64,000 bases of DNA, taken from positions 806,781-870,780 of the forward strand of contig NZ_JAAOYW010000001.1 of assembly GCF_011761235.1 (NCBI RefSeq), in the 5' to 3' direction. The stretch comes from Frigoribacterium faeni. Its GTDB lineage: Bacteria; Actinomycetota; Actinomycetes; Actinomycetales; Microbacteriaceae. Position 1 is the stretch's first letter, and each line of letters opens with the position of its first letter. The notes under the pieces are model-generated. The model was given only the letters and a program-made list of their open reading frames with translations, had not been told where the DNA came from and ran no database searches. Shown in pieces: positions 35,338 to 56,090 of this stretch. Position numbers and translations under genes: made by a program.

Positions 35338-38273
35338 TACGGCGTCCCCGAGGCGTCGCCGTCCGGCGTCGCAGCAGGCGCGGCCTTGCTGCCGGCTGCG
35401 GGCTTGCGCGCCGCGGCCGGCTTCTTCGCGGCGGCGGGCTTCGCGGCGGCGGCAGCCGTCGTGCTCTTGGCCGCGGCCGGCTTCGCGGCGGCCGGCTTCT
35501 TGACCGCCGGCTTCTTGGCGGCGGGCTTCTTCGCGGCCGGCTTCTTGGCGGCGGGCTTCTTGGCCGGCCCCTTCGCCCGCTTGTCGGCGAGCAGCTGCAC
35601 CGCACGCTCGAAGTCGACCTCCTCGACCGTCTCGCCGCGCGGGATGGTCGCGTTCGTCTCGCCGTCGGTGACGTAGGCGCCGAAACGGCCGTCCTTGATC
35701 TTGATCGGCTTGCCGCTGACCGGGTCGGCCTCGAACTCGGCGAGGGCGCTGCTGGCGCGCTTGGCGCCGTACTTGGGCTGCGCGTACAGCTCGAGGGCGC
35801 CGGGCAGGTCGATCTCGAAGATCTGGTCCTCGCTCGTGAGCGACCGGGTGTCCGTGCCCTTCCTCAGGTACGGGCCGTAGCGGCCGTTCTGGGCCTGGAT
35901 CTCGTCGCCCGTCTCGGGGTCGACTCCCACGGTCCGGGGCAGGTCGAGCAACGCGAGGGCCGTCTCGAGGTCGATGGTGTCGACGCTCATGCTCTTGAAC
36001 AGCGACGCGGTGCGCTCCTTGGGGGCCGCCTTCTTGGCCGGCGCCTTCTTGGCCGGGGCCTTCGTCGTGCCGGACGCGGCGGCAGCGGCGGGGGCGGCCT
36101 CGACGACCTCGCCCGTGGCCGGGTCGGCCTCGATCGCCTCCGGGGTGCGCTCGGTCACGTACGGGCCGAAGCGGCCGTCCTTGGCGAGCACCTCCTTGCC
36201 CGACTCGGGGTTGACGCCGACGACGCGGTCGCCGATGACGGGTGCGTCGATCAGCTCGCGCGCACGGGCCGGGGTCAGCTCGTCGGGGGCCATGTCCTCG
36301 GGCACGTTGACCCGCCGCGGCGTCTCGGGGTCGTCGCCGGGCGCCTCGAGGTAGGGGCCGTAGCGCCCGATGCGCAGGGTGAGCCCCTCGCCGAGCGGGA
36401 TGGAGTTGATGTCGCGCGCGTCGATCTCGCCCAGGTTGTCGATGACCTTGCGCAGGCCCCGGTGCGTGTCGTTGCCGAAGTAGAAGCCGTTCAGCCAGTC
36501 GACGCGGTCGGCGTCACCCCCCGCGATGAGGTCGAGGTCGTCCTCCATGCTCGCCGTGAAGTCGTACTGCACGAGGTCGCCGAAGTACTCCTCGAGCAGG
36601 CGCACGACCGAGAACGCGATCCAGTTGGGCACGAGGGCGGTGCCGCGCGGCGTGACGTAGCCGCGGTCGACGATCGTCGACATGATCGCCGCGTACGTCG
36701 ACGGGCGACCGATGCCGAGCTCCTCGAGCGTCTTGACGAGGCTCGCCTCGGTGTAGCGCGGCGGGGCGCTGGTGTCGTGGCCCTTGGCCTCGACCTCGTC
36801 GAGGGCGAGCTGCTGCCCCTCGGTGAGCGGGGGCAGCTTGGCCTCGCCCGCCTCGGCGGCACCGTGCCGGTCTTCGTCCCGGCCCTCCTCGTAGGCGTTG
36901 AGGAACCCGCGGAAGGTGATGACGGTGCCGGTCGCGACGAACTCGGCCGCGGTGCGCTCGACGCCCTCGGCGGAGACGCCCGCCACGGCCTGCGCGGTCG
37001 TGGCCGTGACGACGACGGACGCCGTCGAGCCCTTGGCGTCCGCCATCTGCGAGGCGACCGTCCGCTTCCAGATGAGGTCGTAGAGCTTCCAGTCGTTGCC
37101 CCGCAGGGTCGACTGCATGTCGCTCGGCGTGCGGAAGGTGTCGCCGGAGGGGCGGATGGCCTCGTGCGCCTCCTGCGCGTTCTTGCTCTTGCCCGTGTAG
37201 ACGCGGGGCTTCTCGGGCACCGTGTCGGCGCCGTAGAGGGACGCGGCCTGCGAACGAGCCGCGTTGGTCGCCTGCTGCGAGAGCGACGGCGAGTCGGTCC
37301 GCATGTAGGTGATGTGGCCGTTCTCGTAGAGCGACTGCGCGACGCTCATCGTCTGGCGGGCGGAGAACCGGAGCTTGCGCGCCGCCTCCTGCTGCAGGGT
37401 CGAGGTGGTGAAGGGCGCCGCTGGGCGGCGCGTGTAGGGCTTGGACTCGACGGACGAGACGACGACGTCGACCCCGGCCGACTCGAGCGCCCGCGAGAGC
37501 GCGCCGGCCGAGGCCTCGTCGAGGGCGACGGCCTGGCCCTTGAGCTGTCCGCGGTCGTCGAAGTCGCGCCCGCTGGCGACGCGGGTGCCGTCGACGCGCA
37601 CGAGGCGCGAGACGAACGGCACGGCGTCGCCCGTGGGCTCGAAGGTGGCGGTGAGGTCCCAGTAGGAGGCGGACACGAACGCCAGGCGCTCGCGCTCGCG
37701 GTCGACGACGAGGCGGGTCGCGGCGGACTGCACGCGACCGGCGGAGAGCCCGGGCCCGACCTTGCGCCAGAGCACCGGCGAGACCTCGTAGCCGTACAGG
37801 CGGTCGAGGATGCGGCGGGTCTCCTGCGCGTCGACGAGGGCCGTGTCGAGCTCGCGCGTGTTCTCCTGCGCCTTCTGGATCGCGTCCTTGGTGATCTCGT
37901 GGAACACCATCCGCTTGACGGGGACCTTCGGCTTGAGCTCCTGCAGCAGGTGCCACGCGATGGCCTCGCCCTCGCGGTCCTCATCCGTCGCGAGGTAGAG
38001 CTCGTCGGCGCCCTTGAGGGCGCGCTTCAGCTCGGTGACCGTCTTCTTCTTGGCGTCGGAGACGACGTAGTAGGGCTCGAAGCCGTTCTCGACGTCGACG
38101 GAGAACTTGCCGAGCGACCCCTTCTTGAGGTCGGCGGGCAGGTTCTTCGGCTCGACGAGGTCACGGATGTGCCCGACGGAGGCGAGCACCTCGTAGCCGC
38201 TGCCGAGGTACTGCCCGATCGTCTTGGCCTTCGCGGGCGACTCGACGATGACCAGTTTCTTCGTGCCTGGCAC
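35337..38273 (-). CDS. topA: DNA topoisomerase I with Lys/Ala/Pro-rich tail
   Basis: Type IA topoisomerase relaxing negative supercoils; 978 residues. The TOPRIM domain opens with KLVIVESPAKAKTIGQYLG and contains ATDEDREGEAIAWHL (acidic triad). The active-site Tyr is in YENGHITYMRTDSPSL. Several C-terminal DNA-binding repeats follow (each with DGRFGPYV or NGRYGPYL), without zinc cysteines. The last ~80 residues are repeats of KKPAA, like a histone H1 tail. GTG 38273 is chosen for AAGGAG upstream and because the conserved fold begins at once. Confidence 0.95.
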   Translation of the reverse strand: MPGTKKLVIVESPAKAKTIGQYLGSGYEVLASVGHIRDLVEPKNLPADLKKGSLGKFSVDVENGFEPYYVVSDAKKKTVTELKRALKGADELYLATDEDREGEAIAWHLLQELKPKVPVKRMVFHEITKDAIQKAQENTRELDTALVDAQETRRILDRLYGYEVSPVLWRKVGPGLSAGRVQSAATRLVVDRERERLAFVSASYWDLTATFEPTGDAVPFVSRLVRVDGTRVASGRDFDDRGQLKGQAVALDEASAGALSRALESAGVDVVVSSVESKPYTRRPAAPFTTSTLQQEAARKLRFSARQTMSVAQSLYENGHITYMRTDSPSLSQQATNAARSQAASLYGADTVPEKPRVYTGKSKNAQEAHEAIRPSGDTFRTPSDMQSTLRGNDWKLYDLIWKRTVASQMADAKGSTASVVVTATTAQAVAGVSAEGVERTAAEFVATGTVITFRGFLNAYEEGRDEDRHGAAEAGEAKLPPLTEGQQLALDEVEAKGHDTSAPPRYTEASLVKTLEELGIGRPSTYAAIMSTIVDRGYVTPRGTALVPNWIAFSVVRLLEEYFGDLVQYDFTASMEDDLDLIAGGDADRVDWLNGFYFGNDTHRGLRKVIDNLGEIDARDINSIPLGEGLTLRIGRYGPYLEAPGDDPETPRRVNVPEDMAPDELTPARARELIDAPVIGDRVVGVNPESGKEVLAKDGRFGPYVTERTPEAIEADPATGEVVEAAPAAAAASGTTKAPAKKAPAKKAAPKERTASLFKSMSVDTIDLETALALLDLPRTVGVDPETGDEIQAQNGRYGPYLRKGTDTRSLTSEDQIFEIDLPGALELYAQPKYGAKRASSALAEFEADPVSGKPIKIKDGRFGAYVTDGETNATIPRGETVEEVDFERAVQLLADKRAKGPAKKPAAKKPAAKKPAAKKPAVKKPAAAKPAAAKSTTAAAAAKPAAAKKPAAARKPAAGSKAAPAATPDGDASGTP

Positions 38274-42048: not shown

Positions 42049-44043
42049 ATGGTCGACCGCCAGGACACCCCCACCAGGCCCGTGGCCGAGCACGAGCGAG
42101 GCGCGGACTCGCCCGCAGCCGTGTTCCCCCCGTCCGCCGACTTCGCCGCCCGCGCCGTGGCCGGGACCGACTTCGTCGAGTCCGCCGCGGCCGACCGCCT
42201 GCGCTTCTGGGGGGACCAGGCCCGGCAGCGGCTGTCCTGGCACGTCGAGCCCACCGAGACCCTCGACTGGTCGGGGGCGCCGGTCGCCCGCTGGTTCGCC
42301 GACGGCCGCCTCAACGTCGCCTACAACTGCCTCGACCGCCACGTCGAGGCAGGCCACGGCGACCGCGTCGCCCTGCACTGGGAGGGCGAGCCGGGCGACA
42401 GCCGCTCGGTGACCTACGCGGAGCTGACGCGCGACGTCAGCCGTGCCGCCAACCTGCTCGCGTCGATGGGCGTGGTCGCCGGCGACCGCGTCGTGATCTA
42501 CCTGCCCCAGGTGCCGGAGGCGGTCGTCGCCATGCTCGCCGTGGCCCGGCTGGGCGCCGTGCACAGCGTCGTCTTCGGCGGCTTCAGCGGCGAGAGCCTG
42601 CGCGCCCGCATCGACGACGCCCAGGCCGTGCTCGTCGTCACGGCCGACGGCGGGTGGCGCAAGGGCGCCGTGGCCCCCCTCAAGCCGGCCGTCGACGCCG
42701 CCCTCGCCGTCGGCGGCGAGTCGAGCGTCCGGGACGTGCTCGTCGTCCGACGCGGCGGCAACGACGTCGACTGGACCGAGGGACGCGACCACTGGTGGCA
42801 CGAGGCGCTCGAGGGCGTGTCCGACGTGCACGAGCCCGAGGCCTTCGAGGCGGAGCACCCGCTGTTCATCCTGTACACGAGCGGCACCACCGGCAAGCCC
42901 AAGGGGATCCTGCACACCTCCGGCGGGTACCTCACGCAGGTCGCCACCACCCACGCGACGGTCTTCGACCTGCGGCCGGAGAGCGACGTGTGGTGGTGCA
43001 CGGCCGACGTCGGCTGGATCACGGGCCACAGCTACGTCGTCTACGGCCCGCTCGCCAACGGCGCCACGCAGGTGCTCTACGAGGGCACGCCCGACTCCCC
43101 CGCGCCCGGTCGCTGGTGGGACGTCGTCGAGAAGTACGGCGTCACGGTGCTCTACACGGCGCCCACCGCCATCCGGGGCTTCATGAAGGCCGGCCGCGAG
43201 ATCCCCCAGGCGCGCGACCTGTCGTCGCTCCGGCTGCTGGGCTCCGTCGGCGAGCCGATCAACCCCGAGGCGTGGCTCTGGTACCGCGAGGTCGTCGGCG
43301 GCGGTCGCACGCCGATCGTCGACACGTGGTGGCAGACCGAGACCGGGGCGATCATGATCTCGCCGCTGCCGGGCGTCACCGCGACGAAGCCGGGCGCGGC
43401 CCAGACGCCGCTGCCGGGGATCGCGGTCGACGTGGTCGACGACCTCGGCACGCCGGTCGCCGACGGGGAGAGCGGGCTGCTCGTCGTGTCCGAGCCCTGG
43501 CCGTCGATGCTGCGCGGCATCTGGGGCGACCCCGACCGGTACGCCGAGACGTACTGGAGCCGCTTCGGCGACCGCTACTTCGCCGGCGACGGCGCCCGCC
43601 GCGACGAGGACGGCGACGTCTGGCTGCTGGGCCGCGTCGACGACGTCATGAACGTGTCGGGCCACCGCCTGTCGACGGCGGAGATCGAGTCGGCGCTCGT
43701 CTCCCACCCGATCGTCGCCGAGTCCGCGGTCGTCGGCGCCGCCGACGAGACCACGGGCCAGGCCGTCGTCGCCTTCGTATGTATCCGCGATTCTGTGACC
43801 CTTCAACCTGAAGGCAAGGAAGCGATGGTGCGCGAGTTGCGGGCGTGGGTCACAAGGTCCATCGGTGCCATTGCCCGTCCGCGGGACATCTACATCGTCG
43901 GCGAACTTCCAAAGACACGATCGGGCAAGATCATGCGTCGGCTCCTACGCGACGTTGCGGAAGGTCGCGAGGTCGGGGACACCACGACGTTGGCGGACAC
44001 CATGGTCATGAGCAAGTTGGAGGCTCAAGTGCGTGGCAATTGA
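42049..44043 (+). CDS. acs: Acetyl-CoA synthetase, hybrid gene whose 3' end is supplied by an inserted island
   Basis: Activates acetate to acetyl-CoA through acetyl-adenylate; 664 residues. YTSGTTGKPKGILHTSGGY (ATP loop), WWQTETGAIMISPLPG and the C-terminal PKTRSGKIMRRLLRD with the regulatory/catalytic Lys are all present. Up to 43778 the DNA is GC-rich host sequence. From the 22 bp repeat at 43757 onward the remaining ~88 codons are lower in GC and differ from the native end, which survives at 51095-51372. The chimera keeps all conserved C-terminal residues and is probably functional. ATG 42049 has GAGAGGA upstream; longer readings run into the promoter region. Confidence 0.93.
   Translation: MVDRQDTPTRPVAEHERGADSPAAVFPPSADFAARAVAGTDFVESAAADRLRFWGDQARQRLSWHVEPTETLDWSGAPVARWFADGRLNVAYNCLDRHVEAGHGDRVALHWEGEPGDSRSVTYAELTRDVSRAANLLASMGVVAGDRVVIYLPQVPEAVVAMLAVARLGAVHSVVFGGFSGESLRARIDDAQAVLVVTADGGWRKGAVAPLKPAVDAALAVGGESSVRDVLVVRRGGNDVDWTEGRDHWWHEALEGVSDVHEPEAFEAEHPLFILYTSGTTGKPKGILHTSGGYLTQVATTHATVFDLRPESDVWWCTADVGWITGHSYVVYGPLANGATQVLYEGTPDSPAPGRWWDVVEKYGVTVLYTAPTAIRGFMKAGREIPQARDLSSLRLLGSVGEPINPEAWLWYREVVGGGRTPIVDTWWQTETGAIMISPLPGVTATKPGAAQTPLPGIAVDVVDDLGTPVADGESGLLVVSEPWPSMLRGIWGDPDRYAETYWSRFGDRYFAGDGARRDEDGDVWLLGRVDDVMNVSGHRLSTAEIESALVSHPIVAESAVVGAADETTGQAVVAFVCIRDSVTLQPEGKEAMVRELRAWVTRSIGAIARPRDIYIVGELPKTRSGKIMRRLLRDVAEGREVGDTTTLADTMVMSKLEAQVRGN
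43757..43778 (+). repeat. attL-like 22 bp direct repeat inside acs
   Basis: Begins GCCAGGCCGT and ends GCCTTCGT; identical to 51095-51116. It encodes Gln-Ala-Val-Val-Ala-Phe-Val of Acs in the same frame at both places. Bases flanking it differ between the two copies, so it marks the island boundary. Confidence 0.9.
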
Positions 44044-44193
44044 GCCCGTCTGCGGCGAGTCCTCTACCGTGGCCAAAAAGTTCAAGGCGGCGGGACGCGC
44101 GGCCATGAGCTTCACAGCCGTCACGTAGAGGCTTTGCACGGCTGAGAGAAGACTGTCATCGCGAAGCAGTTAGTGCAAGTGGCTCATGGCCCC
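44044..44193. other. Island spacer between hybrid acs and the DUF6119 gene
   Basis: 150 bp of lower-GC sequence between two convergent genes. I see no gene and no strong hairpin here; a T-rich tract lies just inside the end of the DUF6119 coding region (44229-44236). Confidence 0.4.
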
Positions 44194-45822
44194 TCAAGTG
44201 CCTTTAGGCGTCCGAGACTTTTGAGGCTTCTTTTTTCCACTCCGGTCAGTGGCGTCCGGAACCATCTGCACTCCTACGTCAACTCGCATGGCCTCCAAAG
44301 CGCGCAGGGCGCGCCGCAAAGAGATTCTCGAGAAAATAGGCAGATTGTCGGACTTTTTCTCAGGTGTGCGCTTGTGACTAACAATGGCGATGGCGATCGA
44401 GAAACGGTCCTCCTTGACAGCGGCCGATACTTTCGCCGCCGTACTGGTATCAGATTTCTTCTCAACTAGTTTGTGGAGCTTCTCGCGAGCTTCAGGGGTT
44501 GTACGCAACAGTTCTGCCGAGTTCGCAGCCTGATTGAACAGATGGCTCAAGTTCGCCGAACTCGTTCCGATTTTGACATGGATGAATTCGGGGACGTCTC
44601 CAGTTACCCTTAAAATGTCGCACGGCTCAATAGCTGACTGCCCCTTGGGACTGACATTTGTCTTGTCGAGACAGACAGACTTGGTCAGCCCACTTACCTT
44701 CTCGTTGTACGCACCCTCCGAGGACCATTTGTGCTCAGGTAGGTTCGCATCGATGAAAAAGGGATCGATGTATTCCCGCAGAGAAACAAGTAGATCAGCG
44801 GCCACCTTGAACCAGGAGCCGTCACTAAAGTGGTACGTGTAGTCCTCGTTATCGGAAACCTCAAAAACGAGCGACCTGTATATCGACCAACGTTGGCGCT
44901 GCTTCATATCTCCATCGAGAAGTACTAAGTAGTCGTGTTTGAGACCATCAACCGTTAGAGAATCCTTATCGACTTGGTGCGACTCTAGGTACTCTCGATA
45001 GTGCTTGACGTAGACGTCATCGTGGACATCGCTTCGACCTTGACCTGCAAACTGCACAAACGTCTCATCGCGGTAGTCCAAAATGTCCGGCACCGTCAAA
45101 ACTACAGGCGCAGTCACGTCAAAAATTGCTTCCGCAAGCTTCATGTCCAGAGCAGATATCGTTTGAGGATCCGTGACTGGGCGAATCTTTGCCACACCAG
45201 GAAAAGTCTTCAAGTATGCATCTGACTTGTACAGTTTGTGCAACCTTGAGAGAAGCTTTGCGACATCCTCTGGTTGCGCTGGGGTCGTGATGCGCAAGCT
45301 ACTCGATCCAGTCACGCTCCGAACTAGATCATTGTATTTCGGTCGAGCCTTACCGGTAAGGCTCTTCAATACGGACGCATCTCCCGCAAAGCTTAAGAGA
45401 GCCAAGTCGCCGTCGTATGGAATCTGGGTACGGCGCCTCTGAGAAGAATCTGGGTCGAGGGTTTCAGTACTCTTCAGCTTGCGTGGGTCAACAGCATTCA
45501 GGACAACTCGAGTTCCAAAGTCATGTTCATAAGCCTCATCCCGGAGCAAGAATTGACCGGAACCAAACGTCAAAACCATTAGACGCTTCCCGGACGGAAC
45601 AAAGGCAGCTGCCGAATTGGAACCTTGAAGGAGCTTCGCGTCTAGGGACAGGTAGTCCTTCCACCAGGGGGCGTCCTGCGTCGCGGGCTTGATGAACACC
45701 CTAAGACCCGGAATCGAGCTGGAATGTTCTGTTGTCTCCTGATAGTCATGATCTGATCGAAGGGCCCCCTCGACCGTCATGCCGGACTTTAAGGCGTAGA
45801 TAGACATCGACCTTGTTGCCAC
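44194..45822 (-). CDS. DUF6119/TIGR04141 family protein (sporadically distributed, defence-associated)
   Basis: 542 residues, no membrane segment. The order of motifs fits the family: SIYALKSGMTVEGAL at the N-terminus, then LTFGSGQFLLRDEAYEHDFG, LLSFAGDASVLKSLTGK, a central Tyr/Trp-rich region (YTYHFSDGSWFKVA), and SVCLDKTNVSPKGQSAIEPC with EFIHVKIGTSSANLSHLFNQ, which may be a degenerate nuclease core. The family's biochemical role is not known to me. GTG 45822 has GGGGGA just upstream; an in-frame ATG at 45807 is an alternative. Codon use is much less GC-biased than in host genes. Confidence 0.78.
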   Translation of the reverse strand: MATRSMSIYALKSGMTVEGALRSDHDYQETTEHSSSIPGLRVFIKPATQDAPWWKDYLSLDAKLLQGSNSAAAFVPSGKRLMVLTFGSGQFLLRDEAYEHDFGTRVVLNAVDPRKLKSTETLDPDSSQRRRTQIPYDGDLALLSFAGDASVLKSLTGKARPKYNDLVRSVTGSSSLRITTPAQPEDVAKLLSRLHKLYKSDAYLKTFPGVAKIRPVTDPQTISALDMKLAEAIFDVTAPVVLTVPDILDYRDETFVQFAGQGRSDVHDDVYVKHYREYLESHQVDKDSLTVDGLKHDYLVLLDGDMKQRQRWSIYRSLVFEVSDNEDYTYHFSDGSWFKVAADLLVSLREYIDPFFIDANLPEHKWSSEGAYNEKVSGLTKSVCLDKTNVSPKGQSAIEPCDILRVTGDVPEFIHVKIGTSSANLSHLFNQAANSAELLRTTPEAREKLHKLVEKKSDTSTAAKVSAAVKEDRFSIAIAIVSHKRTPEKKSDNLPIFSRISLRRALRALEAMRVDVGVQMVPDATDRSGKKKPQKSRTPKGT

Positions 45823-46028
45823 TTTTCCCCCGTTAGCTTGGATGGACTCGTGAGGGCAACGTCAACGCCTTCGCGAGGCCAGACATGGCGCCCCGTTCAC
45901 CCTCGATATCCAGCGTCTGCCTCATCATGACAGGGTCATAGTGGGCGGCGATAGTGCAGAATTGGCCGATGGCGGGTCAGCAAGCAAACGGGGCACCACC
46001 GCATCAGCGCGGAAGCCGGAAACCTCCA
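45823..46028. other. Island intergenic region between two minus-strand genes
   Basis: 206 bp that must hold the promoter for the DUF6119 gene if it is not read from the HNH gene. I recognise no clear gene, hairpin or strong promoter box. Confidence 0.3.
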
Positions 46029-46796
46029 CTAGAGCGCCGAATCCCCCTCGCAACCTGGGCTTGGGGTTTCGTCCTGTATTTTCCTCAGCTCGTCTTCGTG
46101 AAGGACGGCGATGCTGGCGACTTGGATGGGCATGTCCGGGCCACGTCCACCTACGATCCTTCGGCTAAGTCTCCGGCCATAAACGAATAGCTTGTGATCC
46201 CAGAGGTCCGAGATGGCCTCATCCAGGACGCGCTGAGCATCCCGAATAACGCCGAAGCCCGCCTCCTGAACCGTGTCGGCGATCTCCCCGTAATCCTTCG
46301 CAAGCGACAGAAATTTATCGGCAGCATCTGAAGCAGCTCTATCATCGTCGCCCTCGGCAGAACGCATCATGAACATGTGCGCGCTGGCTACGACGCTCCA
46401 GACGGCCTCGCCCGTAATCAGCGGAACCATAGAAATGGAGCTTTCATCATCGTTGGCCACTACGCGCTGACGACCTTCGGACAATTTGTCCTCCGCCCAT
46501 TTTTCGTGAGCGGCCTTCTTGGCTAGAAGCCACGCAACAGGGTACCGAGTCGGAAGTGAATCTATGCGCTTGTGGTCCGTTGCGCAGAGCAGAATCAGGT
46601 TCTCGTACCCGTCCACGTTCTCCCGTGATCCATCTGCACCCCGAGGCCCGTTGATGCTCCGCGCGACGATGTGCGCTTCCTCACCCAGGACGAGGCCACC
46701 ACGCTCGTCCGATTCGGTCAGGGGCTGCTTGCACATGGCACATCTGTCATGAGCTCTACCCCACAACATCTTCCGGGACTGATCCGTAATTGTCAC
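46029..46796 (-). CDS. HNH endonuclease domain protein
   Basis: 255 residues. The N-terminal ~95 residues are an HNH nuclease: a zinc knuckle RCAMCKQPL, then EEAHIVARSINGPRG with the catalytic His, NLILLCATDHKRID with the second Cys and the final His. The C-terminal ~160 residues are helical, acidic and unrecognised (AEGDDDRAASDAADKFLSLAKDY) and may sense a signal or bind a partner. The GTG start at 46796 is divergent from the AIPR gene across 87 bp. It is likely an effector nuclease of the island. Confidence 0.8.
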   Translation of the reverse strand: MTITDQSRKMLWGRAHDRCAMCKQPLTESDERGGLVLGEEAHIVARSINGPRGADGSRENVDGYENLILLCATDHKRIDSLPTRYPVAWLLAKKAAHEKWAEDKLSEGRQRVVANDDESSISMVPLITGEAVWSVVASAHMFMMRSAEGDDDRAASDAADKFLSLAKDYGEIADTVQEAGFGVIRDAQRVLDEAISDLWDHKLFVYGRRLSRRIVGGRGPDMPIQVASIAVLHEDELRKIQDETPSPGCEGDSAL

Positions 46797-46871
46797 ACCG
46801 TGATGGTCTCACGCGCCACGCGTCCCGTGTCCCGCGCGTCGGAGTAGCCACAGTGAATCCCTCTGGGCCGC

Positions 46872-46877
46872 TACAGT
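46872..46877 (+). promoter_or_regulatory. Probable -10 box of a leaderless AIPR transcript
   Basis: TACAGT six bases before ATG 46884, with no ribosome-binding site between, in the divergent gap to the HNH gene. Confidence 0.5.
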
Positions 46878-46883
46878 CCTGTC

Positions 46884-48653
46884 ATGACCCTCAGCGCTGA
46901 CCAGGCCATGGCGAAGCACGCCTTTAACGACTACCGCAAGGCAAACTACCCTGCCCTCTCAGAAGATAAAGCCTTCGAGTACTACGCGACTCACCTCGTC
47001 ACGAAGCAGCTGGGGGTAAGTGCGGAGGTAGTTAGACAGAGCATTGTGGGCGAGGGGGGTGACGGCGGCCTCGACTCGGTCATGATCCTGCTGAACAAGA
47101 CTGAGTTCGTGGGCAGCGGGTCCGTTCGCCTGACAAATCGCAAGGCCAGCTTGGATGGCCTTCAAAAAGGTGTTCCTCTCGACATCGTTGTGGTGCAGTC
47201 CAAGAATGTGGATAAATGGGACAGCGAAGTGTTCCCTAAGATTCGGGACGCGCTCCAACTAATGATGGACGCGTCCGTATCTGTGCAAAAGCTTCGCGAG
47301 TTTCCGCTCAATGAGGACGTTATCGAGGCGGCGCAGACCCTTCGAAAGCTCCAGCGGAAGCTGGTTCCGCTGACCCCGGATGTCACCTTTGAAGTCAGCT
47401 ACGTGTGCTTTGCCAAGAAGAAAGACATCGACCAGTACCGCGTTACGAAGCGTGGTCTGCTCGAAAAATTCCTGAAAGACAAGCTGCCAACTAGAACCAA
47501 AGTCAAGGTTGAATACGTCGGCGCGGAGCGCATCAATGATTTGGACGCGCAGAGCAGTGACTTTGATGTAACCCTGGAGTTTGCTAAGGCTCCAGTTAGA
47601 GATGGACACGCGCTGGTCGGGCTGGTGCGCGTGCGTGACTACGCCAAGTTCTTGCGCCGCCCCCGGTCTGAGGCAATCCGCGAGGAGATGTTCGCGGTCA
47701 ACGTGCGGGACTTCGCCGGTAAAACCGCCCGGGTCAACGCGGCGATCGGTGAGACTCTGGCCGCCGACGATAAGTCAGCCTTTTGGTGGCTGAACAACGG
47801 AATCACCATCATCGCCGACGAAACCAGCGATCCGAGCGAGACGAAATGGGTTCTGACTAACCCTCTGATTGTCAACGGCTTACAGACCTCAAACGTGGTG
47901 CATGCCTTCGCGGTTGAAAAGAAGATAACGAAGAAACGACTCAGTCAGTCGCTTTTAGTCAGGGTCATTAAGGCGCCTGAACCGGAAATCAGAGAAGCTG
48001 TTATAACTGGAACCAACAATCAGACGACGGTGAATAGCCTCCAGCTGCACGCAAATGACGACCTGCAAATACGTCTTGAGCGATACCTCCGTTCGAAGGG
48101 TTGGTACTACGAGCGTCGGCGTTACCAGTACAGGAACACCCAGCCGAAACCCCCCGCGAGCAAGGTGCGCAGCGTAACGGAACTCGCGCAAGCCATGATG
48201 GCTGTTCATCTGTTGGTTCCCGATACGGCGAGGGCGCGGCCGGCTACGCAATTGTCAACGAAAGCTGGCTTTGGCAGAGTTTTCGACCAGCAACTCCCAG
48301 AGCTGCTCTACGAAAAGTCGCTCACCGTTTTGGAGGCTGTGGAGTCTTACCTGCAAAGCGGTACCGGCAAAAGTCATGCTGACACCGCTACAAATGCACG
48401 ATTCTATTTGGCCTCCGGGCACGTCATTCGCTCGGTCGGCCTCAAGTCACTGTCGACTTTTTCCGCGGCCGTGAGTGTAAAGCAGATCAAGGCAAGGCCG
48501 ACCATTGTTGAGCTGGACATGCTCCACAGCATGCTCGATGCCGCGGTCGCGTCCCTCGACGACGGTAAGACTGCTCGTGATCAGATTTTCAAAGGCTCAG
48601 AGTTGAAGAAAGTCTTCTTCGATGCCATTTTGAAGCTGAACGGCCAACCTTAA
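46884..48653 (+). CDS. AIPR family abortive-infection protein
   Basis: 589 residues. The family is linked to abortive infection against phages, and this member fits it well. The N-terminal third has a PD-(D/E)XK-like nuclease pattern, GEGGDGGLDSVMILLN then VVVQSKNVDKWDSEVFPK. The AIPR core starts near residue 245 with EMFAVNVRDFAGKTARVN and has FWWLNNGITIIADE, NPLIVNGLQTSNVVHAF and ITGTNNQTTVNSLQLHAND, its most conserved segments. It stands alone on the plus strand between minus-strand defence genes. The trigger and target are unknown. Confidence 0.88.
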   Translation: MTLSADQAMAKHAFNDYRKANYPALSEDKAFEYYATHLVTKQLGVSAEVVRQSIVGEGGDGGLDSVMILLNKTEFVGSGSVRLTNRKASLDGLQKGVPLDIVVVQSKNVDKWDSEVFPKIRDALQLMMDASVSVQKLREFPLNEDVIEAAQTLRKLQRKLVPLTPDVTFEVSYVCFAKKKDIDQYRVTKRGLLEKFLKDKLPTRTKVKVEYVGAERINDLDAQSSDFDVTLEFAKAPVRDGHALVGLVRVRDYAKFLRRPRSEAIREEMFAVNVRDFAGKTARVNAAIGETLAADDKSAFWWLNNGITIIADETSDPSETKWVLTNPLIVNGLQTSNVVHAFAVEKKITKKRLSQSLLVRVIKAPEPEIREAVITGTNNQTTVNSLQLHANDDLQIRLERYLRSKGWYYERRRYQYRNTQPKPPASKVRSVTELAQAMMAVHLLVPDTARARPATQLSTKAGFGRVFDQQLPELLYEKSLTVLEAVESYLQSGTGKSHADTATNARFYLASGHVIRSVGLKSLSTFSAAVSVKQIKARPTIVELDMLHSMLDAAVASLDDGKTARDQIFKGSELKKVFFDAILKLNGQP

Positions 48654-48760
48654 TCGTGCTCCATCAGGCCGCTAATTATGGGCAAAGTGTCGCCTTGACA
48701 AATTGCCGCCGATTATCGGGCACTATGGCCCATACAGACCACTCGCTTTTGCCAATCAGG

Positions 48761-50242
48761 TCAAGTGTCAATGCCGTGTTCTTGCGCAAACGAGACGATA
48801 ACGAGACGGTCGTAGGCGTCCTCGAGGATAGCGTTAGGCCCGTGTGAGCGTCCCTCCTGCCAATCTCGATGGGCGATGAAGTTCCTGGGGTCGGTGAACT
48901 CAGACGCTGATCCGACGAGGGCTGCGAGTTCTTCGCGTTCAGTGGTGGCGACGGATTCAACGAAGTGAGACGGAACAATGGCAAGCGGGAAATCAGCCGG
49001 GGGCAGGAGATCCTTTACAAAATTCTGATCGACCAGATCAAACATTCCCAGCGTCACGAGGAGCCCAATGATTGGGCGATCTCGCGGAAGGAACTGTACG
49101 GCAGGATGTCTTTTCGCGACCAAGCTGTAGGTCGCGTTAAGTTGTCGAACTCCCTTCATCAGGGCTTGCTCGTGCGCTTCCTCGTGAGCGTATAACCCTT
49201 CCTTGATTGCCTGACTCGGGAGGACGCTCTTGCACTCGATCAAGAACACCGCCTCCGGCGTGACCACGAACCAGTCGATGGTCTTCTTTTCTTCCTTGCC
49301 GTAGGTGATCTCTGGGCGGACAACGAAATCTTTGCCTTGTCGCAGTTGGCGTCCGATGTACTGCTCAAACAGGTAGCCGAGGTCGTGAAAAAACCCTGTC
49401 GACCACTTGGCGACGCCCGCATAAACGATGCCCGCCGGCGAGACCTTTAGATTCAGGGCCGGGGGGCAGGGAGCGATCCATTCGCCGGGGAGGACACCAC
49501 CGACAAGGGGTGTAGCTAGAAGCGGATTATAGGCAAACGGTTCCCTGATGAACTGGCTCCCCGGGCTGTCTTTTCCTTGAGCGAGCGCCGCAATTCGCGC
49601 CTTCTTGAATCCCGAGATGTCGGTGGCGAAGTTTCTCACAACGACTGCATCAAACTGCTTTTGGCCACCGAGCAAGTCCCGCATTCTTGCGAGCTCGTCT
49701 GACCACGGAAATGGGAAGCGAGAGCCTCGGTTCGTAGCCGCCCACAGAATTGCCCCGACGGACACGAAGGTCTCAATGGTGGTACCAAAGAGTTCTTCTT
49801 GCCACCCCGGCTTCATCGCCTCGGGTGTGTAGTTGATCGGAAGGTCTGTATCGACGAAGAGAGCGACGCACCTTGCCCAGTCGTGCTTACTGATGCGGTT
49901 GTAGGGCCACTGCTCGTACGCCCACCTCAACATTAACCCGAACGTGCCCTGCAGTTCGTCGAGTTGCTGAGGAGTCTGGATACGAGAGAACTCATGGGTA
50001 ATGCGCTTGACGTCCGTTAACGTGGGGCGCTTACCACCTCTAGTGCCACGCGTTATGGCCACGGCAGCTGCACCGGCCACGTTCCACGGCAAAACTTCTT
50101 TTGCGACCGTTTCCGCGTCCTCCTCGAAAGGGCTACCATCCCAGCCCAGACAACTCTGTGACAGACCGTAAAGCAGTTCATCTCGGTCGTAGCGCCGAAT
50201 CAGCGAGATGTAATCCTGATACCGCTTTAGACCTTTTGTCAT
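48761..50242 (-). CDS. Unknown protein with C-terminal PD-(D/E)XK nuclease-like motif
   Basis: 493 residues from ATG 50242, where MTKGLKRYQDYISLIRRYD looks like a natural N-terminus; an upstream TTG at 50320 would overlap the previous gene. The N-terminal ~270 residues are helical and unrecognised. The C-terminal part has FFHDLGYLFEQYIGRQLRQG, then KTIDWFVVTPEAVFLIECKS, an Asp...Glu-x-Lys nuclease signature like that of NERD and restriction-type domains. It probably forms an operon with the Vsr-like gene upstream. GC is intermediate. Confidence 0.65.
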   Translation of the reverse strand: MTKGLKRYQDYISLIRRYDRDELLYGLSQSCLGWDGSPFEEDAETVAKEVLPWNVAGAAAVAITRGTRGGKRPTLTDVKRITHEFSRIQTPQQLDELQGTFGLMLRWAYEQWPYNRISKHDWARCVALFVDTDLPINYTPEAMKPGWQEELFGTTIETFVSVGAILWAATNRGSRFPFPWSDELARMRDLLGGQKQFDAVVVRNFATDISGFKKARIAALAQGKDSPGSQFIREPFAYNPLLATPLVGGVLPGEWIAPCPPALNLKVSPAGIVYAGVAKWSTGFFHDLGYLFEQYIGRQLRQGKDFVVRPEITYGKEEKKTIDWFVVTPEAVFLIECKSVLPSQAIKEGLYAHEEAHEQALMKGVRQLNATYSLVAKRHPAVQFLPRDRPIIGLLVTLGMFDLVDQNFVKDLLPPADFPLAIVPSHFVESVATTEREELAALVGSASEFTDPRNFIAHRDWQEGRSHGPNAILEDAYDRLVIVSFAQEHGIDT

Positions 50243-50309
50243 CTCTTTACCAACTGACGCAACGAGTTGAGTGCACGCAGGCGCAACACGCCGCCCCCCG
50301 AGCCCAGCA

Positions 50310-50759
50310 TCAGGCGCCAAGTGGGCGGTCGCTAGGCTCGGACACTTCGTTGAGGGCTATGCGAACGACCGCCAGGTCGACCTTGTGGTCCTGCACGATG
50401 AACCGCCCTTCAACCGTGAAGTCACTTATCGGGATGACTACGAGCGTAAGGCCATGCTTGGGCATCAGGTCGCGGCGTCGGTCGTCGTAGATCCTGCGCT
50501 GCACGCCCCGATGGACGCCGGAAACGGTCATGCGGTGCGGCTTGTCAAAGTGGGCGACGGCCTCAGTGTGCTGTTTCTCGTGGAATTCAACAACGAGCCC
50601 AAGCGTCGGCCTATAGGCGTCCACCGGGAGCGGCATGCGACGACCTGTCTTCGCGGATTCGTCACCGAGCAACCAGTCGAAGGTTCGCTGCCGTTCGCCC
50701 GCGACACCCAGGGCCTCGTTACACAGGGCAAGTACATACCGCTCGTTCTCTAGTGCCAC
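50310..50759 (-). CDS. Small Vsr-like (restriction endonuclease fold) protein
   Basis: 149 residues. The segment MPLPVDAYRPTLGLVVEFHEKQH has the Asp...Glu-x-His/Lys layout of Vsr and DUF559-type nucleases, and YDDRRRDLMPKHGLTLVVIP matches their late strand and the positively charged loop. The GTG start at 50759 has TAGGCT six bases upstream, so the mRNA may be leaderless. The downstream PD-(D/E)XK gene starts 67 bp after its stop (or overlaps, if its TTG start is used). It may nick or cleave DNA as part of the island's defence; this is inference. Confidence 0.65.
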   Translation of the reverse strand: MALENERYVLALCNEALGVAGERQRTFDWLLGDESAKTGRRMPLPVDAYRPTLGLVVEFHEKQHTEAVAHFDKPHRMTVSGVHRGVQRRIYDDRRRDLMPKHGLTLVVIPISDFTVEGRFIVQDHKVDLAVVRIALNEVSEPSDRPLGA

Positions 50760-51094
50760 GACGTCAGCCTAACGACCGTCCACCAGTCGGCCTGTCGCAG
50801 CCTGACGGCCGAAAGGCTGCGGGACACACGACGACCGTACCGACCGACGATGTGGCTCACATCAAATCGACGCCGCTTGAAACGCACTTCGAGCTGCCTA
50901 ACCCAACGGAAGCACACCCATGTCAATTACAAACTCAGCCCCTCACGGCAGTCTTGTTCTTGCCGCTCGACGCCTACCCCGTCTCCTTCTCGATCATCAC
51001 TGATGCGTGCGTAGATGGCAGCCTTCTGCGTCACGACCATGACAATTGCTCCTATTTGTCGACCCAATGCTTACACATAGTGCAACAGCAACGT
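50760..51094. other. Right end of the island, no recognised gene
   Basis: 335 bp with mixed base composition. It holds TAGGCT (50766-50771, minus) for the Vsr-like gene and a 27-codon open frame at 50920-51003 with no recognisable features. In all frames I find nothing resembling a recombinase remnant. The stretch just before the repeat contains GTGCAACAGCAACGTGCC, which might hold accessory recombination sites. Confidence 0.4.
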
Positions 51095-51116
51095 GCCAGG
51101 CCGTCGTCGCCTTCGT
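51095..51116 (+). repeat. attR-like 22 bp direct repeat
   Basis: Second, identical copy of the repeat at 43757-43778, followed directly by the native acs 3' coding sequence in the same reading frame. Confidence 0.9.
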
Positions 51117-51388: not shown

Positions 51389-51868
51389 TCAGGCGAGCGG
51401 CGACACCTCGAGCACGAGCTCGACCTCGACGGGAGAGTCGAGGGGGAGCACGGCCACGCCCACGGCGCTGCGCGCGTGGACGCCCGAGTCGCCGAAGACC
51501 TCGCCGAGCAGCTCGGAGGCGCCGTTGAGGACCCCGGGCTGGCCGGAGAAGGCAGGGTCGGAGGCGACGAACCCCGTCACCTTCACGACGCGGACCACGT
51601 CGTCGAGCGACCCGAGCACGCCGGCCGCCGCCGCCAGGGCGTTGAGGACGCAGGTCGCGGCGAGCTCCCGTGCCCGGGCGGGGGCGACGAGCCCCTCGCC
51701 CTCGCCGACCTTGCCGGTCTCGGGCAGCACCCCCTCGACGAAGGGCAGCTGGCCCGCGGTCCAGACGGTCGTCCCGACGCGCACGGCAGGCACGTAGACG
51801 CCCGCGGGCGCGGCGACGGCGGGCAGCGCGAGCCCGAGCTCGGCGAGCCGGTCGGCGACGCGGGGCAC
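51389..51868 (-). CDS. RidA family protein (YjgF/Rv3678c type)
   Basis: 159 residues, the longer actinobacterial RidA-like form with the N-terminal PRVADRLAELGLALPAVAAPAG. VYVPAVRVGTTVWTAGQLPF and VVRVVKVTGFVASDPAF followed by HARSAVGVAVLPLDSPVEVELVLEV are the fold's conserved strands. RidA proteins remove reactive enamine/imine intermediates; the activity of this subgroup is uncertain. The GTG at 51868 shares one base with the upstream DUF4177 stop (TAGTG). Confidence 0.88.
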   Translation of the reverse strand: MPRVADRLAELGLALPAVAAPAGVYVPAVRVGTTVWTAGQLPFVEGVLPETGKVGEGEGLVAPARARELAATCVLNALAAAAGVLGSLDDVVRVVKVTGFVASDPAFSGQPGVLNGASELLGEVFGDSGVHARSAVGVAVLPLDSPVEVELVLEVSPLA

Positions 51869-55668: not shown

Positions 55669-55742
55669 CGGGGTGTGGCGCAGCTTGGTAGCGCGCCTCG
55701 TTCGGGACGAGGAGGTCGTGGGTTCGAATCCCGCTACCCCGA
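55669..55742 (+). tRNA. tRNA-Pro (anticodon CGG)
   Basis: 74 nt cloverleaf. Acceptor CGGGGTG pairs with TACCCCG (one G-U), discriminator A. The anticodon arm CCTCG-TTCGGGA-CGAGG gives CGG for Pro codon CCG. The T arm is GTGGG-TTCGAAT-CCCGC. No CCA is encoded. TATCCT at 55622-55627 is a likely -10, about 35 nt upstream. Confidence 0.95.
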
Positions 55743-55746
55743 CGAG

Positions 55747-56090
55747 AAATGGCCGGACCTTTGGGTCCGGCCATTTCTCTTGTGTCCTTTGGCGGGGCGG
55801 TCCCCGCCCGCCCCGCGCCAAATGGCCGGACCCTTGGGTCCGGCCATTTTTCTTGTGCTTGTCGGCGGGGCGGTCCCCGCCCGCCCCGCACCGATGGCTG
55901 GACCCTACGGGTCCGGCCATTTCTCTTGTGCTTGTCGGCGGGGCGGTCCCTGCCGGCCCCGCGAAAATGGCCGGTCCCTCGGGTCCGGCCATTTCTCTCG
56001 TGCCTGTCGGCAGGGCGGTCCCCGCCCGCCCCCGCGAACGTGTGCCTGTCGGCGGGGTGGTTCCCGCCCGGACCGCAGGGCACGGCCGGA
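55747..56090. repeat. Tandem array of terminator hairpins after tRNA-Pro
   Basis: Four copies of a hairpin of the form AAATGGCCGGACC-loop-GGTCCGGCCATTT start at 55747, 55820, 55894 and 55965, a period of about 73 bp. Between and after them are five copies of a second GC-rich word like GTCGGCGGGGCGGTCCCCGC followed by CCGCCCCGC. The loops differ (TTTG, CTTG, CTAC, CTCG), and copy 4 has one T-T mismatch. The array ends just before the convergent tdk gene. Confidence 0.88.
55820..55853 (+). terminator. Best-formed intrinsic terminator of the array
   Basis: A perfect AAATGGCCGGACCC / GGGTCCGGCCATTT stem followed by TTCTTG, giving a run of five T on the plus strand after the arm begins its T tract. 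It would end the tRNA-Pro transcript; because the stem is symmetric it could also act on the tdk side. Confidence 0.75.

Follow-up and report, generated by a model that had tools for sequence, protein, structure and literature searches.

How can a gene hold a 7.3 kb island within its coding sequence and still be read through to a complete protein? This question is raised by the acetyl-CoA synthetase gene (acs) in a stretch of 64,000 nucleotides of Frigoribacterium faeni, referred to at its full length as the window. An earlier sequence-only reading had proposed that a perfect 22 bp direct repeat within acs bounds a lower-GC segment, that the left copy continues in frame into a complete acs 3' end and the right copy into the host-type 3' end, and that an island has integrated into acs and rebuilt it. 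Our analysis bears out each of these proposals and suggests that the island is very probably a decayed, non-autonomous member of a Microbacteriaceae family of large serine integrase (LSR) elements, which use codon Gln571 of acs as their chromosomal attachment site (attB) and rebuild their target.

The insertion and the rebuilt acs gene

The repeat, GCCAGGCCGTCGTCGCCTTCGT (22 bp), occurs in exactly two copies in the window, both on the same strand and inside acs, and delimits an island of 7338 bp with the boundaries first proposed, 43757 and 51116 (Table 1). The remaining exact same-strand recurrent 22-mers in the window are local, with spacings of 30 to 146 bp. GC content is 0.72–0.81 to the left of the insertion, 0.48–0.63 within it and 0.65–0.76 to its right. 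At the left copy, host-type acs codons run in frame into an island-borne 3' end and form a reading frame of 664 aa. The junction is Gln571 in the motif GQAVVAF, 56 residues ahead of the last lysine of PKTRSGK, a region which we take to be the acetylation loop of Acs; because of this distance, the loop is carried whole by the island. This corrects the earlier suggestion that the acetylation-loop region serves as the attachment site, as the loop itself is not split. At the right copy lies the displaced host 3' end, an orphan tail 95% identical to the tail of a congener and 67% identical to the island-borne one.

The empty site was examined by joining the window flanks in silico and comparing them with the acs loci of nine Frigoribacterium genomes. 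A single alignment ran straight over the join in all nine congeners, with 82–89% identity, and extended behind acs into RidA-like and penicillin-binding-protein-like genes (names given by eye); in congener L007 the flank alignment comes in two pieces, the second after a short gap behind acs. Because the joined flanks align across the join in every congener, the island is an insertion, and its absence from all nine suggests a recent arrival. These are the uninterrupted relatives for which the sequence-only reading had proposed to search. An assembly artefact, which that reading had raised as an objection, has practically no probability: nothing was found in its favour, and the two tails differ, the window sits within a single contig of 1.42 Mb, and the same layout is found in other genomes, as described below.

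Recurrence in Microbacterium and the integrase

When the genome collection was searched with the island tail and the best 80 of 593 loci were considered, Microbacterium paulum 2C came out as the top match. In this strain a decayed minus-strand serine integrase is followed by an orphan tail and then by RidA-like and penicillin-binding-protein-like genes; a whole acs lies on a separate contig, and Pro/Thr-coding repeats (by eye) stand at or close to the end of each of the two contigs. Apart from M. paulum (L061), none of these 80 loci, nor any of 7 loci from viral contigs, has a short internal frame for the tail; their acs frames under 450 codons are longer or run to a contig end. Within 295 genomes of Microbacterium, the acs tail was matched in 287 and two tails in 9 (E <= 1e-25). 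Six of them (cited here by our own handles) are clear cases in which acs is accompanied by an orphan tail with a short open frame of its own, the two tails lying 22.6 kb apart in G436, 3.1 kb in G440 (where acs runs into undetermined bases), 25.9 kb in G536, 3.2 kb in G575 and 55.6 kb in G653, and on two contigs in M. paulum (G398). A partial acs 3' end downstream of acs, which had been named as a check, therefore recurs in Microbacterium, 3–56 kb away where both lie on the same contig. In addition, G657 (L159 1447-2533) holds a 0.8 kb element remnant between a whole acs and a stop-containing orphan tail, and in G455 and G498 the acs tails are distributed over different contigs.

A full-length LSR adjoins the orphan tail in G436, G653 and G455, and a decayed one in M. 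paulum. The distance from the LSR start, as taken, to the orphan tail is 164 bp in G653, 39 bp in G436 and 60 bp in G455. The G653 protein has Resolvase, Recombinase and Zn-ribbon domains and shares 54% identity with the LSR of G436 and 60% with that of G455. A weak LSR match in G575 (E 0.005) falls within the acs gene stretch and was set aside as chance. As an observation in its own right, the integrase, arm, core, acs tail and a TetR-like gene of G455 (L162 1-3504, on the large contig C4) are contiguous, like an uninserted element attachment site (attP).

The window retains a relic of such an integrase, whose first Met lies 55 bp inside the right core and 57 bp from the right tail. This relic is 64–75% identical over 24–28 aa to the three full LSRs that adjoin acs tails (E 3e-8 to 2e-7), and a profile of these three recovers it with E 5.8e-9; the rest of the island has no other stretch that matches the three LSRs beyond chance. 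In a tblastn search of 50,697 phage records (E <= 10), the relic matched 134 records (best E 2e-5), including the R4 integrase with 63% identity over 30 residues; the 40 of these records that were listed are annotated as integrase, serine integrase, recombinase, ORF469, hypothetical or nothing. Integration was most likely carried out by a large serine integrase. An island of the tRNA/icd type, driven by a tyrosine integrase and targeting acs, would show the same anatomy of a rebuilt gene and a displaced fragment, a principle described in the accessible part of PMC4383910. We regard it as extremely unlikely, since no tyrosine integrase was found among the seven open reading frames (ORFs) scanned with Pfam, PADLOC and NCBIfam (small ORFs lay outside the scan), and both the relic and the neighbours of the orphan tails are serine integrases.

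The origin of the restored end was examined in a tree of 54 tails over 91 columns, few for this number of rows, with groups named after the tails were seen. Three Frigoribacterium tails form a group with the right tail (support 95/90), and 16 Microbacterium tails form one with the island tail (95/93); forcing the island tail to group with Frigoribacterium is rejected (AU p 0.0065). Judged by its sequence, the island-borne tail is foreign and belongs with the Microbacterium tails, not with those of the host genus. Its nearest tails by path are the left tails of G657, G653 and G436, and its nearest by identity is the ordinary host tail of G649, at 74%; the exact placing is unsure because of a long branch (0.45). 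A single clade of the presumed element-borne left tails of the window, G653, G436 and G657 is not rejected (AU p 0.54), but it appears in only 24% of the bootstrap trees, and equally good clustering arose in 36 of 500 shuffles. A distinct acs tail is limited to these four elements; in G536, G575, G440 and M. paulum the left tail falls among those of hosts. One may speculate that the Microbacteriaceae LSR elements bring along an Acs C-terminal domain of their own that evolves separately and includes the catalytic and acetylated lysine, such that each integration would swap the regulatory end of a central-metabolism enzyme and might retune acetate use or its control in the element's favour, an idea which we consider unlikely.

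Attachment sites, mechanism and rival explanations

Seven other right junctions start at the same Gln codon (by eye), that of G657 being blurred. The element-side arm of the window was compared with five other arms by composition shuffles, which gave p 0.0058 for G436 and 0.0002 or less for the rest; the arms of M. paulum and G536 are almost identical (26/28). Pooled over seven elements, the inverted symmetry reaches 90 of 182 for attP (45.5 expected) and 89 for attB, both best centred on the CA of the Gln codon. Since the pooled sites are related, the pool does not amount to seven independent tests. Among the three elements tested individually, p 0.01 is reached by the attP sites of G653 and G436 only. 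The arms of G653 carry the words CATAC and GTATG some 18–25 bases from the CA centre, and the window has GTATGTAT in common with the G653 arm on one side (both by eye). For a Listeria phage LSR, the accessible part of PMC3783163 describes a zinc domain that shifts between bases 16–24 and 11–19 from the centre.

A second element type, with GCATACTTTG and CAAC words in its arm and with a TetR-like and a surface-type gene (both named by eye), recurs in G398, G440, G536 and G575 (L152, L153, L154, L155, L061, L150). The copy in G536 has ORF pairs of identical start at both ends, like copies of an insertion sequence.

In the mechanism that we propose, an LSR whose gene lies next to the right end and points inward would recombine a putative circular form of the element with acs, with the crossover probably at the dinucleotide CA of the Gln571 codon. 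The attP would consist of the integrase-side element arm on one flank and a complete acs 3' end on the other. Because attP carries this acs 3' end, the last 94 residues of Acs are replaced, the gene stays whole, and the host 3' end is displaced to the opposite end of the element. The integrase gene may have lost its larger part after or during the gain of the defence-type genes. Both att sites seem undamaged, so that the island might still be mobilised in trans by a related integrase.

Donor DNA might alternatively have entered acs by homologous recombination, through a Campbell-type single crossover or a homology-facilitated join that needs no integrase; the integrase of the window is nearly gone, and the acs homology is sufficiently long. 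We nevertheless consider this very unlikely. A single crossover predicts donor acs upstream of the right core, whereas the likeness there stops within a few bases; the other right junctions share one starting codon; and a relic or full LSR lies at the right junction in the window, M. paulum, G436, G653 and G455. It is about an even question whether the island is by now immobile, a fixed defence locus with fossil att sites, which would be compatible with its origin as an LSR element. This is favoured by an integrase reduced to 37 codons with no further match in the genome at E <= 1e-5, by the elements of G440, G536 and G575, in which no integrase was found, and by the decayed integrase of M. 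paulum; core and arms that are still recognisable, together with the signs of recent arrival, speak for continued mobility.

Several observations weigh against an LSR element family at acs, or against the place of the window in it. The relic scores below the cut-off against Pfam Resolvase (E 0.034), a full LSR gene was not found in the island beyond the 37 N-terminal codons, and the three-LSR profile run on the whole genome of the window (E <= 1e-5) returned the relic alone, such that present mobility is unproven. No integrase was found in the pieces read of G440, G536 and G575, nor in those of G657, and the left tails of the first three resemble ordinary host tails. The acs frame of G653 is broken about 190 residues before the junction, by error or decay, and in G455 acs lies whole beside RidA, with the integrase and tail elsewhere. 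The arms are not independent, because four of the seven are of one near-identical type. The pooled symmetry is nearly as high at centres -12 and -11 (79 and 85), the attP of G436 prefers -12, and the symmetry of the window alone is not significant (p 0.34 for attP, 0.20 for attB). The wider samples belong here as well. Among 145 genomes of the family Microbacteriaceae, chosen by eye among those with at least two acs-tail matches, a clear internal orphan tail was seen in the genome of the window only, among the matches listed. An order-wide sample of 376 genomes, searched with the three-LSR profile (E <= 1e-60; loci with about 1.5 kb on each side), yielded 12 matches spread over 11 genomes; no acs tail lies in any of these loci.

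Wider searches, cargo and known systems

The family sample behind these counts had an acs-tail match in 385 of 398 genomes; six congeners with two matches were left out of the 145, their acs locus being whole in the empty-site comparison. Short, edge-cut or low-identity acs frames were met elsewhere (G176, G220, G373, G387, G368, G391, G219, G649 and G624). Of 62 family matches to the relic peptide, 30 came with loci, one of them that of the window; an acs tail was absent from all 29 others. The order-wide search contained one close LSR relative, in G947 (E 4.9e-161), which does not adjoin an acs tail. Across the sampled genomes, acs targeting is seen only in Microbacteriaceae, as far as these sequence matches indicate. 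Two genomes with an LSR match on the contig that holds acs, G345 (L180 8463-9590) and G060 (L181 3711-6227), were examined further and rejected: acs is whole in both, and the LSRs lie on its 5' side, about 1.8 kb upstream in G345 and 4–6 kb upstream in G060 (two in a row), with 25–37% identity to the acs-tail LSRs; a second acs tail was absent from the 14 kb examined.

Searches of phages, plasmids and IMG/VR with acs tails gave no such element among the matches listed (for plasmids, the best 20 of 307). The LSR of G653 had no relative in viral contigs and distant ones only in plasmid and phage records, among the matches listed, with 26–33% identity to the 20 listed phage rows. Sequence searches of the PDB gave no match. 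In two viral contigs (L142 and L144) an integrase-like ORF lies just 3' of a whole acs, which was judged by eye to be an unrelated insertion on the tRNA side. A Pseudomonas phage record (OQ572408.1, bases 13-255) begins with an acs C-terminal coding stretch.

Table 1. Coordinates of the island, its attachment sites and its neighbours in the window
Feature	Position	Strand	Evidence
acs, rebuilt: host-type codons 1-570 and island-borne codons 571-664, in frame	42049..44043	+	ATG 42049, stop 44041-44043, 664 aa
Left repeat copy (attL core)	43757..43778	+	Exact match; predicted crossover dinucleotide CA 43759-43760 from pooled symmetry, not significant for the window alone
Island-borne acs 3' end restoring the gene, 94 codons	43759..44043	+	
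DUF6119 / TIGR04141 protein, 542 aa, candidate defence cargo	44194..45822	-	Pfam PF19614 E 7.2e-136; TIGR04141 E 4.1e-118
HNH endonuclease, 255 aa	46029..46796	-	Pfam HNH_2 E 6.9e-5; PADLOC SAVED_HNH E 6e-23, residues 2-104 only
AbiU-like protein (AIPR family), 589 aa	46884..48653	+	PADLOC AbiU E 9.5e-133; Pfam AIPR E 3.7e-35
Weakly GapS1-like / NERD-like protein, 519 aa	48761..50320	-	NCBIfam GapS1 E 1.8e-7, 30 bits vs cut-off 320; NERD E 0.0053, below cut-off
149-aa ORF, PD-(D/E)XK-like by eye	50310..50759	-	PADLOC mREase_II E 0.026; no Pfam or NCBIfam match at E 0.1
Integrase relic: first 37 codons of an LSR, then stop 50927-50929	50930..51040	-	Pfam, tblastn, LSR comparison
Element-side arm at right junction, last two bases = core	51069..51096	+	14-20/28 identical to five other arms
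Right repeat copy (attR core)	51095..51116	+	Exact match
Displaced host acs 3' end (orphan tail), 91 aa	51097..51372 (coding to 51369)	+	
RidA-like gene (by eye) of the right flank; directly follows acs where the site is empty	51389..51868	-	

The cargo of the island looks like anti-phage defence genes from its profile matches (Table 1): the AbiU match is strong, the first 100 residues of the HNH protein resemble nuclease effectors of known defence systems, the GapS1 match lies far below its cut-off, and the DUF6119 protein is a candidate. No conjugation or virion genes were found in the seven ORFs scanned, five of which are island genes (PHROGs lay outside the search). A Pfam scan of 12 ORFs of G653 and 8 of G436 found in both a GmrSD-like endonuclease adjoining an EcoRI-type methylase, along with a primase/polymerase and an Mrr-type domain in G436, and a GIY-YIG domain and a sub-threshold FtsK match in G653. 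Restriction-type cargo thus recurs in these two relatives, and the cargo of the window differs from it.

Well-known LSR systems include phiC31, Bxb1 and R4, of which R4, like SV1, uses another CoA-ligase gene as its target, and e14 in icd is a gene-restoring island. Serine-integrase integrative and conjugative elements (ICEs) of Streptococcus integrate at rumA, hsdM and mutT, and all insertions of the 29 such ICEs disrupt genes, according to the accessible part of PMC4701971. As in the LSR prophages and ICEs treated there, the acs elements have an LSR next to one of their att ends, use one protein-coding gene as target and show short identity at the crossover; unlike them, the acs island brings about 280 bp of coding sequence that rebuilds its target in frame. 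In tRNA and tmRNA islands, the target is split and rebuilt from element sequence, with the displaced fragment at the far end (PMC4383910, accessible part), an arrangement which the acs island shares in its intact target and displaced fragment. As far as that source goes, those islands use tyrosine integrases as a rule, whereas the acs island would combine a serine integrase with a protein gene, of which it carries the final 94 codons. Another gene-restoring island used for comparison, in the portion of its description available, is SGI1, located at the trmE 3' end. A prolyl isomerase site is targeted by 33 LSRs (PMC10083194, accessible part) and is similar to acs in offering one conserved coding site to varied LSRs, in a different gene; the main text of that paper holds no word starting with 'synthetase' or 'acetyl'. 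Among the matches listed in a literature search mostly without subscription journals and supplements, no paper on acs as an integration target was found.

Going by the accessible parts of these sources, LSRs at conserved coding sites (PMC10083194) and target-rebuilding islands of tyrosine integrases at tRNA genes (PMC4383910) are known already. On our best reading, what is new is a family of LSR elements whose attP rebuilds acs, the gene that they target; the member in the window has lost its integrase and carries cargo of the defence type. Such a family would make acs a recurrent landing site in Actinomycetota for which full-length integrases, arms and attB are in hand, and thus a possible integration tool. 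It further suggests that serine-integrase elements, target-breaking in the streptococcal survey, can rebuild a target with a long carried coding end. The combination of a whole gene with an orphan 3' end downstream also provides a search rule for integrase-less islands that integrase-based searches would miss.

Two further repeats were observed in the window, away from the island. A 73-bp tandem repeat in 3.9 copies (55747-56032) lies just after tRNA-Pro (55669-55743), and its units hold hairpin-like words (by eye), as in stacked terminators. Tandem repeats of 15–18 bp at 35380-35569 are, by eye, of the Ala/Lys-rich kind of histone-like proteins.
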